Below are positions 14,141-17,365 of a stretch of 64,000 bases of DNA, piece by piece (the first letter of the stretch is position 1; each line of letters opens with the position of its first letter). The stretch is from contig NZ_BSDE01000001.1 of assembly GCF_030268085.1 (NCBI RefSeq), positions 1,178,001 to 1,242,000 on the forward strand. Reading direction: 5' to 3'. The stretch is from Geothrix limicola. GTDB lineage: Bacteria > Acidobacteriota > Holophagae > Holophagales > Holophagaceae. The notes beneath the pieces were generated by a model. That model was not told where the DNA came from. It saw nothing but the letters and a program-made list of their open reading frames with translations, and did not search any database. Position numbers and translations under genes: made by a program.

Positions 14141-15268
14141 ATGTTGTCACTGCAATCGAGGATCCGCGACCCCCGCCTGCTGCCCCTGGCAGAGAAGGTG
14201 CTGCGCGGAGAACGCCTGAGCTTCGAAGACGGTCTGCTGCTCTACGAGACGCCCGATCTCACAGGCGTGGGCGCCATGGCCCACCATGTGCGGCTTTCGA
14301 AGCACGGCCGGGCGGCCTACTACGTGGTGAGCCGCCGCCTCTCCTACACCAATGTCTGCTACACCCACTGCCAGTTCTGCGCCTTCCAGGCCAAGCCCGG
14401 CGATCCCCGGGCCTACGCGCTCTCCGCCGAGCAGATCATCGCCGAGCTGGAGAAGCCCGAGAACGCGGGCGTCCGCGAGCTGCACATGACCTCGGGCCAC
14501 AACCCCAAGCTGAAGATCGACTACTTCGAGGATCTGTTCACCAAGATCAAGGCGCGCTTCCCGTCCATCCACCTCAAGGTCTTCACCATGATCGAGATGG
14601 ACTACTACGCGCGGATCTCGGGCCTGTCGACGGATGCCTTCCTGGACCGCTGCATGGCCGCGGGCCTGGAGAGCTGCCCCGGCGGCGGCGCCGAGATCTT
14701 TGACGAGGAGCTCCGCGAAAAGATCTGCATCGGCAAGAAGGACGCCCAGGTCTGGCTCGACACGGCCGAACTCTGCCACCGCAAGGGCCTGCCCACCAAC
14801 TGCACGATGCTCTACGGCCACATCGAAGAACCGAAGCACCGGGTGGACCACCTGCTGCGCCTGCGCGACCTGCAGGACCGCTCCCTGGCGGCGGGCTATA
14901 CGGGCTTCCTCGCCTTCATCCCGCTGGCCTACCAGAACGAGGACAACGAGCTGAGCGCCACTCACGTGATCCACGAGACCACGGGCACCCAGGATCTGCG
15001 CGAGATCGCCGTGGCCCGGCTGCTGCTCGACAACATCCCGCACATCAAGGCCTACTGGGTGATGATCTCTCCGGGCCTCGCCCAGGCGGGCCTCAGCTAC
15101 GGCGCCGACGATCTGGACGGCACGGTCATCGCCGAAGAGATCGCCCACCTCGCCGGCGCCAAGAGCCCCCAGGGGCTGCAGCAGGGCGAGCTGATGCGCC
15201 TCATCCAGGACGCCGGTTTCGAGGCCCTGGAACGCGACAATCTCTACAACACCTACGCGGCTGTCTAG
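14141..15268 (+). CDS. mqnE: aminofutalosine synthase (radical SAM)
   Basis: 375 residues from ATG 14141, with GAGGT upstream. NVCYTHCQFCAF carries the radical-SAM Cys-x3-Cys-x2-Cys cluster. HMTSGHNPKLKIDYFEDL, LESCPGGGAEIFDEELREKI and TNCTMLYGHIEEPKHRVDHLLRLR, then FIPLAYQNEDNEL and LLLDNIPHIKAYWVMI, match MqnE better than its relative MqnC. MqnE joins the enolpyruvyl group of 3-(1-carboxyvinyloxy)benzoate to SAM-derived adenosyl, giving aminofutalosine. This shows that the cell makes menaquinone by the futalosine route. No other mqn genes are in the window. Its stop overlaps the convergent phospholipase-like gene. Confidence 0.92.
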   Translation: MLSLQSRIRDPRLLPLAEKVLRGERLSFEDGLLLYETPDLTGVGAMAHHVRLSKHGRAAYYVVSRRLSYTNVCYTHCQFCAFQAKPGDPRAYALSAEQIIAELEKPENAGVRELHMTSGHNPKLKIDYFEDLFTKIKARFPSIHLKVFTMIEMDYYARISGLSTDAFLDRCMAAGLESCPGGGAEIFDEELREKICIGKKDAQVWLDTAELCHRKGLPTNCTMLYGHIEEPKHRVDHLLRLRDLQDRSLAAGYTGFLAFIPLAYQNEDNELSATHVIHETTGTQDLREIAVARLLLDNIPHIKAYWVMISPGLAQAGLSYGADDLDGTVIAEEIAHLAGAKSPQGLQQGELMRLIQDAGFEALERDNLYNTYAAV

Positions 15269-16467
15269 TCGACCTTCCGTTTCTCGTAGGTTTTCGCCGG
15301 ATCCAGCGCGAACGCGTAGCGGCTGCCCCAGAGGCGGTCGAAGATGCCCGTGGCCTGGGCGGCCAGGGGCGAATCCCTGAACAGGAGTTCGACGTTGCGG
15401 GAGTCGTCGAAGTAGCTCTCCTCCCAGTTGCTCGTGCCCACGGACAGGTGGGTGCCGTCCACCACCAGGTACTTGCTGTGGACCGTGCGCGAGAAGGGGA
15501 TGTGGCCCTCCTTCGCCTCGGGGATGGAGACCACCTTCACTTCGAGGTTCGGGATCAGGGTGAGGGATTTCAGGTGGGGCAGCGCTCGGCTGCCCAGGGT
15601 CCAGTCCGAGACCATCAGCCGCACCTTCACGCCCCGCACGGCGGCGGCACGCAGGGCGTTGTCCAGCCTGGGCCAGAAGCGGTCCTGGCCCGCCACGGGC
15701 GAATAGGTCAGCAGCTGCACGCGTACGCTCTGCTTGGCCTGGTCCAGCAGATCCACCAGGGCCTCGATGGCGGGGCGGATGTCTTTGGGCGTGAGGAAGG
15801 GCGGGCTCGCCACCAGCTCCACCTGCGACCGGGCGGACATGGGCGGCTGCGCGGGCAGGTCCGGCAGCTTGCGCCCTTCGGCGAAGGCCCAGTCGATGGC
15901 GAAGAGCCGTTCAAGCCGCGAGGTGATGACCGGTTCGGTCGTGCGCACACCCAGTTCGTGGATGTGTTCAAGGGCCCGCCAATCGAAGTTCTGGCTGCCG
16001 ACGTAGGCCTCCTTCCCGTCCACCACGAAATACTTGGCGTGGAGGATGCCCTTGGAGACGCCCGCCAGATCGAAGCTTCGAACTTCGGTGCCGGGGATTC
16101 GCTTGATGCGCGCCACCGAGGCGGGGTCCTGATCCAGCATCTTGGATGACAGCAGGAACCGGATCTTCACGCCCCGGGCTCCGGCCTTTTCCAGCTCCAC
16201 CAGCACGGGCTCCAGGGCGCTGCCGGGCCGGTTGGTGACGTAGAACTCGGCGGCATCCACGCTCAGCTTCGCGCTGCGGATCATCTCCACCCACGCGTCC
16301 TTGGCGAAGGCCAGCGCGGGATCAGCGAGCTCCGTTTCGGCGGGAATGGACTGCACCAACTGAGTACGTGTCGCCTGTTCCCGGGGTCCGGCCTGCGCTT
16401 GCGCCGGCCTGGGGGCGCCGAGCATCAGGCCGGCGAGTGTCATCAAAAGCGTGGCACGGGCGCGCAT
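15265..16467 (-). CDS. secreted phospholipase-D-like protein
   Basis: 400 residues from ATG 16467, chosen because TAGGAGGG sits 5 bases upstream and a signal peptide (MRARATLLMTLAGLMLGAPRPAQA) follows. The frame stays open further upstream only because of the structured element there. Two HKD motifs mark the phospholipase D superfamily: HAKYFVVDGKEAYVGSQNFD near residue 190 and HSKYLVVDGTHLSVGTSNWE near 330. Each has His-x-Lys-x4-Asp. Both half-sites are intact, so phosphodiesterase or transphosphatidylase activity in the periplasm or outside is likely. The substrate (lipid or nucleic acid) is unknown. It is convergent with mqnE; no partner genes are evident. Confidence 0.85.
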   Translation of the reverse strand: MRARATLLMTLAGLMLGAPRPAQAQAGPREQATRTQLVQSIPAETELADPALAFAKDAWVEMIRSAKLSVDAAEFYVTNRPGSALEPVLVELEKAGARGVKIRFLLSSKMLDQDPASVARIKRIPGTEVRSFDLAGVSKGILHAKYFVVDGKEAYVGSQNFDWRALEHIHELGVRTTEPVITSRLERLFAIDWAFAEGRKLPDLPAQPPMSARSQVELVASPPFLTPKDIRPAIEALVDLLDQAKQSVRVQLLTYSPVAGQDRFWPRLDNALRAAAVRGVKVRLMVSDWTLGSRALPHLKSLTLIPNLEVKVVSIPEAKEGHIPFSRTVHSKYLVVDGTHLSVGTSNWEESYFDDSRNVELLFRDSPLAAQATGIFDRLWGSRYAFALDPAKTYEKRKVD

Positions 16468-16481
16468 GGCATCCCTCCTAA

Positions 16482-16751
16482 GAGTGCCTAACAAAACTCC
16501 CACGCGGTCGCGCGAGGGACGCCGGGCGAGCGAGGCGAGGAACGCGAGTCGAAGCGTAGCGGGTACTACGCGCGACGAGCGTGACGACGCATCGCGACGC
16601 CCGCCGGCCCTCGCCAGGAGGGATGAAGCCAGGCAGGCGCCCCGCGGCGTCAGCGCCCTTGAACAACGAACCACGTTGCCCTGCGGGCCCTTCCTTGCGG
16701 TGCATCCTGTCTGGCTTCATCGCGGCCTCGTCGGAGTATTGTTAGGCACTC
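16482..16751. repeat. 270-bp three-way-junction palindrome with attC-like outer boxes
   Basis: The outer stem pairs 16482-16511 with 16722-16751; the terminal GAGTGCCTAACAA is perfect and the rest has about four mismatches. Inside lie two long imperfect hairpins. Hairpin 1 is 16512-16614 with its tip GCGTAG-CGGGTA-CTACGC at 16554-16571. Hairpin 2 is 16621-16721, its base GATGAAGCCAGGCAGG against CCTGTCTGGCTTCATC and its tip CAACG-AACCA-CGTTG at 16664-16678. The ends read GCCTAAC (16486-16492) and GTTAGGC (16741-16747), the outer core boxes of integron attC sites, but the element is longer than usual attC sites and no integrase is present. It could be a structured RNA, an attC-like site or a dispersed repeat. 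Confidence 0.6.
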
Positions 16752-16804
16752 AAAGACGAGGATACCCCGTTGACCGAGCGCTCGCTCCCTGCTGATCTGA
16801 TGGC

Positions 16805-17365
16805 ATGGAGACCAAAGCCGAGTTCCGAGCCCACCTGAAGAAGCGCCGGGACGCGCTGCACGCGGAGGCCCGCCAGGGTTGGTCCCGGGCCATCTGCGAG
16901 CACCTCGGGCAGTTCTGCCGCGCGCACCGGTTCACCCGCATCGGCGCCTTCTGGCCCATCGGTTCGGAGATCGATCTGCGCCCAGCGGTCACGGATCATC
17001 CGGACTGGCTCTGGTTCTTCCCGCGGGTGATCTCCACGGAACCGCCACGGCTCGCCTGGGGCACCGAACCCCTGGAGAAGGGCCCATGGGGCCTCATGGA
17101 GCCCGCCCTGGCCCAGCATTTCCTCCCGCCCGTGCAGGTGCTGCTGGTGCCGGGCCTGGCCTTCGACGGAAACGGGTACCGCATCGGCTACGGCGGCGGG
17201 TTCTACGACGCGCTGCTGGCCAAGCTGTCGGAAGACACGCTCACCGTGGGCGTGGGCTTCGAATCGCAGATGGAGCTGCCTGTGCCCGTGGATCCTCATG
17301 ACTGGCCCGTTTCCGCCCTGCTCAGCGAACGGGGCCTCCGCCGCCTGGATACGGAGACGGACTAG
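16805..17365 (+). CDS. 5-formyltetrahydrofolate cyclo-ligase
   Basis: 186 residues from ATG 16805. RAHLKKRRDAL is the family N-terminal basic helix. RIGAFWPIGSEIDLRP and the phosphate-binding LLVPGLAFDGNGYRIGYGGGFYDALLAK are the diagnostic blocks, with the GYGGGFYD motif binding ATP and folate. The enzyme converts 5-formyl-THF to 5,10-methenyl-THF in an ATP-dependent step, returning stored folate to the one-carbon pool. It lies 53 bp beyond the three-way-junction element. In gammaproteobacteria the corresponding gene (ygfA/fau) follows the 6S RNA gene, which is why that element deserves testing as an RNA. Its stop overlaps the next, convergent gene by four bases. Confidence 0.93.
   Translation: METKAEFRAHLKKRRDALHAEARQGWSRAICEHLGQFCRAHRFTRIGAFWPIGSEIDLRPAVTDHPDWLWFFPRVISTEPPRLAWGTEPLEKGPWGLMEPALAQHFLPPVQVLLVPGLAFDGNGYRIGYGGGFYDALLAKLSEDTLTVGVGFESQMELPVPVDPHDWPVSALLSERGLRRLDTETD

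Follow-up and report, generated by a model that had tools for sequence, protein, structure and literature searches.

What is the strongly folded sequence that lies between two divergent genes of Geothrix limicola, one for a PLD-like protein and the other for 5-formyltetrahydrofolate cyclo-ligase, and why is its fold kept? The window that we analyzed is a stretch of 64,000 nucleotides of contig NZ_BSDE01000001.1, and the initial annotation of this DNA had proposed three readings of the element: a structured RNA, a mobile recombination site related to the attC sites of integrons, or a dispersed repeat. Comparison of the sequence with its relatives indicates that it is an IS5-type MITE, a non-autonomous DNA transposon that belongs to a new family and is ordinary in kind (probability around 0.92). 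This assignment is made because the ends, the target and a cognate insertion sequence (IS) agree; mobilization would occur in trans.

Fold and boundaries of the element

A terminal stem around two imperfect hairpins of about 100 nucleotides had been described from the sequence, and the folding energies bear this out on both strands, with z values of about −8 (Table 1). The plus strand (16472–16761) folds with an MFE of −171 kcal/mol (z = −8.2) and the minus strand with an MFE of −180 kcal/mol (z = −8.65). None of the shuffled sequences reached the MFE of either strand, the energy of the element being about 8 standard deviations below that of the shuffles. The element carries no transposase gene, and it was correctly noted that no gene explains it, its reading frames being open through composition alone. 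Its length falls within the range of 50 to 500 bp of MITEs. The outer 7-mers GCCTAAC and GTTAGGC, which had drawn attention to attC sites, are indeed present but sit within the longer ends GAGTGCCTAACAAAAC and GTATTGTTAGGCACTC. The first 16 bp of the left terminal inverted repeat represent the commonest end type in the family. The folded element begins and ends exactly where the target-site duplications and the empty sites of the family place the limits of the mobile unit, and 2 bp separate its left end from AGGAGG, the Shine-Dalgarno-like motif of the PLD-like gene.

Table 1. Coordinates of the folded element, its parts and its neighbors (positions in the window).
Feature	Position	Strand	Remarks
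Whole putative mobile element with three-way-junction core	16482..16751 (270 bp)		Based on copies, TNA duplications and empty sites
Left terminal inverted repeat GAGTGCCTAACAAAACT	16482..16498	+	Matches the ends of the 869-bp IS in L304 and the IS relic of the same genome
Right terminal inverted repeat	16735..16751	-	Complementary to the left repeat with 1 mismatch
Hairpin 1 of the core	16512..16614		Imperfect; conserved tandem G-A mismatches
Hairpin 2 of the core	16622..16721		Apical part best conserved across genera
Left target flank TAA	16479..16481		Adjoins AGGAGG (Shine-Dalgarno-like motif of the PLD gene); family target CTNAG
Right target flank AAA	16752..16754		Imperfect duplicate of TAA in the window copy
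PLD-like protein (PF13091)	15265..16467	-	Neighboring gene
5-formyltetrahydrofolate cyclo-ligase (PF01812)	16805..17365	+	Neighboring gene

Dispersal, target duplication and cognate insertion sequences

The genome itself contains four full copies, namely the window copy and three others at 84–93% identity, together with shorter remnants. The search of related genomes that had been recommended revealed copies scattered at unrelated loci in 44 of the 47 Geothrix genomes, often with 10 to 25 matches per genome (BLAST pieces, which are not always full copies). At the family level, matches were found in 54 of 77 genomes and in 6 of 11 genera. The hosts recovered by a pattern scan were Geothrix, other Holophagaceae and a few less precisely labelled MAGs; beyond the Holophagaceae there was almost no match among 396 genomes of the phylum, and no record in the phage and plasmid collections matched the element.

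The flanks of 152 unique copies with recognizable ends read C-T-N-A on the left and T-N-A-G on the right, which corresponds to a target CTNAG with TNA duplicated. Among the 124 copies with GAG/CTC ends, 33 had identical 3-bp flanks as compared to 14.6 expected (p<5e-5; none of 20,000 permutations gave as many as 33). Duplication lengths of 2, 4, 5, 6 and 8 bp showed no excess of identical flanks. Empty sites were searched by joining both flanks without the element and matching the junction to orthologous sites in other species. This yielded an empty site at L213 for the copy at L168, with 94% identity over the junction, and further ones at L250 and L017 for the copy at L053. The element is thus multicopy and polymorphic for presence at orthologous sites, as is characteristic of MITEs. 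The imperfect flank duplication of the window copy (TAA/AAA) counts against the assignment.

Within the IS5 family, one subgroup (IS1031) typically combines GAG ends with a TNA duplication of 3 bp. A sister species of the same genus carries at L304 (1423–2291) an IS of 869 bp whose ends are GAACGGCTAACAAAACC and GAGTGCCTAACAATACT and whose two flanks both read TTA. The two frames of this IS have hits to PF13340, PF01609 and the NCBI IS5 model NF033580. In the genome under study, a 78-bp relic (G000:C2) shows 90% identity to the 3′ end of the L304 IS and encodes IHQVFLSLGCILICWYALGW followed by a stop, as far as the terminal GAGTGCCTAACAAAAC. A genome of another genus (G065) harbors a related IS in several copies, with the ends GAAGTGGTGACAAAACC and TTA/TTA flanks. 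The element therefore shares its terminal inverted repeats with an autonomous IS of the IS5 family (the L304 IS and the relic), and its TNA duplication agrees with the TTA/TTA flanks of the L304 IS, two traits expected of an IS5-family MITE. These matches emerged through distant copies with other ends; the inverted repeats that flank PF01609 genes had at first seemed unrelated. The scattered copies, target duplications, empty sites and cognate IS together confirm the third of the initial readings, a dispersed repeat, and sharpen it into a transposon derivative.

We propose that the element depends on an IS5-family transposase acting in trans, which would bind to the paired ends, cut out or copy the unit and then link it to a staggered cut of 3 bp. 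Most host genomes, that of the window among them, now lack the transposase gene or retain a relict of it, and the window copy is therefore probably an immobile remnant of past activity. The genomes with the most element copies yielded no intact cognate IS, and the presence of PF01609 did not predict the number of element copies (p = 0.63–0.88).

Other observations concern the mobile elements of these genomes. The complete genome G065:C1, from another genus of the family, has undergone an IS expansion with about 46 IS5-type transposase matches, and the element search gave no copy there. A candidate autonomous element (L144, 343–1389) was rejected, its left end being a chance match. An origin as a REP/RAYT-type repeat was likewise rejected: Y1_Tnp was detected in only 5 of the 47 genomes of the genus, and in the genome under study only as a fragment.

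Maintenance of the paired core

A MITE needs its ends only, and mobilization in trans alone consequently does not explain why the core is so strongly conserved from genus to genus. Covariation, which had been recommended as a check on a functional structure, proved to be strong both among near copies and across genera. In 81 near copies, 94.1% of the cells were paired and double changes occurred in 56 of 104 pairs, with 463 doubly changed cells versus 135 in shuffles. In 19 copies spanning genera, 96.7% were paired, double changes occurred in 59 of 88 pairs, and the covariation score was 0.442 versus 0.138. The departures from Watson-Crick pairing bear on the level at which this constraint acts. 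An RNA should tolerate and favor G-U on its own strand, yet G-T and A-C departures were equal (161 versus 161; 29 versus 25) without RNA-strand bias; the pairing thus looks to be constrained at the DNA level and not in RNA, with the caveat that such a bias could be masked if some copies were transcribed from one strand and some from the other. The DNA might form a hairpin or a cruciform during replication or transposition. Alternatively or additionally, one arm might be corrected from the other by template switching.

The latter route would, in its extreme form, dispense with selection: mutations would be copied from arm to arm, and the core of the MITE would otherwise be a neutral passenger. 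The ends, which are less conserved than the core and yet remain paired, fit this explanation, as do the missing strand bias and the changes that arose in situ on both sides in orthologous copies (L053/L179, L083/L067). Template switching should, however, also correct the mismatched internal loops, and most of these, including the tandem G-A pairs, persist at 90–98%; the non-canonical loops (tandem G-A, C-C) have almost never been turned into Watson-Crick pairs. Furthermore, unpaired core positions are slightly better conserved (0.92) than paired ones (0.90), and the apex of hairpin 2 is conserved across genera with a mean identity of 0.91, as compared to 0.64 for the ends. Neutral template switching possibly accounts for the pairing of the arms but not for the persistent mismatches or the conserved apex, and we regard it as an unlikely explanation of the core, though one of some weight.

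The same conserved features, namely the strong covariation, the preserved non-canonical internal loops (tandem G-A, C-C) and the nearly invariant apex of hairpin 2, also speak for a structured RNA with a function, whether similar to 6S or of another type, kept by selection on the fold of its transcript. We consider this highly improbable. Besides the equal departures described above, Rfam gave no match at the gathering score and the sole match at a relaxed threshold was due to chance; the element copies are scattered and differ in number from species to species, and shared flanks can enclose the core in either orientation. The initial annotation had raised 6S RNA in view of the ygfA homologue nearby, a suggestion that finds no support, since RF00013 matched neither in the window nor in the genome and the copies do not occupy a single locus before that gene.

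A further reading, scarcely credible, takes the element for an attC site of the chromosomal integron of the host, either oversized or solitary, whose folded strand the integron integrase would recognize. The host does possess such an integrase (G000:C4:18756-19700, 464 bits), along with about 31 attC sites that have GCCTAAC/GTTAGGC as outer boxes; like attC, the element conserves structure more than sequence; and among genomes at least 90% complete, the presence of the integrase goes with more element copies (p = 0.007, shared ancestry uncontrolled), a correlation that probably reflects shared ancestry and is given no weight here. However, a covariance model built from 33 attC sites of the host genus found 31 matches in the host array and no element at E≤1. 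The consensus RYYYAAC/GTTRRRY was fitted by only 62 of 124 copies, the window copy among them. The boxes are set in by 4 bp from the element boundaries, which carry 3-bp duplications, whereas attC inserts without target duplication. The terminal stem has no extrahelical bases near the boxes, no copy was located within the five integron regions that we read, and some genomes without a full integrase are rich in copies, such as G033 with 21. The attC membership suggested by the boxes accordingly finds no support. The integron locus of the host extends over G000:C4:1-19703 (L322), and an integron integrase scored above the NCBI cut-off in 29 of the 47 genomes of the genus.

Exchange of ends and comparison with known systems

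Within the genus, copies of the MITE vary at end positions 4 to 9 and yet their ends stay complementary. The end types are split over the core tree (weakly supported) and do not form single groups, and distant copies have wholly different ends that are still paired. Three related cores (L334:336-605, L335:353-626 and L336:317-590) carry the ends GGAGCCTGTCCAAGTAA, which are identical over 17 of 17 bp to those of an IS1182-family IS in L265 (about 99–1636); in two of the three the flanks are TA within CTAG, as in the L265 IS. The copy in L338 has ends resembling those of a multicopy IS5-type element. Related cores are thus associated with ends of the IS5 type GAG..C.TAACAAAAC, of the IS1182-family type GGAGCCTGTCCAAGTAA and of another IS5 type, GTCTGTTTTCAAATTC, at near-constant total length, and one core type was seen with ends from at least three distinct ISs, one of which belongs to the IS1182 family. 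The core might therefore be mobilizable by several transposases, since related cores carry ends of the IS1182 family and of a second IS5 group. Tentatively, a core selected for its DNA fold may ride several unrelated transposases and swap both ends in step, parasitizing ISs in turn, although we would give this somewhat less than an even chance. Other related elements (the second hit in L033, L153:1261-1531, L337:337-593, L332:336-597 and L333:338-599) have ends resembling GGGGCTGGAACGGAATAAGC or GGGGCTGGAAGGGAATTATC, for which no cognate IS was found.

The interior of the unit is also rearranged. In several site groups, orthologous copies are set apart by the presence or absence of entire hairpins (42 or 136 bp), and the core is inverted between unchanged arms in two orthologous pairs, L053/L179 and L105/L106. 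In the latter (L105:801-1110 and L106:801-1109, from two species), the reverse-complemented cores are 0.989 identical and the ends are the same. Identical ends are common to copies of 50 to 466 bp. Elements of 230 to 466 bp in L103, L108, L109, L112 and L117 have gained or lost hairpin modules, for instance an insert of about 42 nucleotides, TCTCGGTATCGCC...GGCGATACGCGAGA.

MITEs are usually seen as passive deletion derivatives in which nothing but the ends of a single parent IS is left. In this family it is the ends that turn over, and the three-way-junction core persists across several genera and about 25–30% divergence, with covariation that is strictly Watson-Crick. This provides a testable case in which a DNA fold, and not sequence or RNA, would be what a mobile element keeps, and in which one core could switch transposases. 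Hundreds of unexplained hairpin repeats in Holophagaceae gain an annotation.

Several known systems share part of these properties. The Tn3-derived TIMEs are likewise non-autonomous and form mosaics, but they have Tn3-family ends and duplications of 5–6 bp, and the portions of the source available to us describe no conserved folded core (PMC4133298). The attC sites of the same genome have in common with the element the outer 7-mers and an imperfect hairpin; they differ in measuring 124 or 66 bp, in forming a cassette array beside intI and in having no target duplication. To our knowledge, there is no sequence relation between the element and the ERIC and YPAL repeats of enterobacteria. These repeats, of 127 and 168 bp, resemble it as dispersed mobile palindromes with target duplications (3–26 bp for YPAL) and a strong predicted fold, whereas the Geothrix element is 270 bp long, duplicates TNA and has an identified cognate IS (PMC2229807). 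The closest likeness in kind is to prokaryotic MITEs including those of the IS5 family, which are short and dispersed, lack a transposase gene, share inverted repeats with an IS, generate a short target duplication and form stem-loops (PMC10969869), all traits found in the Geothrix element. Unlike MITEs in general, its core is multi-branched, covaries across genera and is joined to the ends of several IS families.
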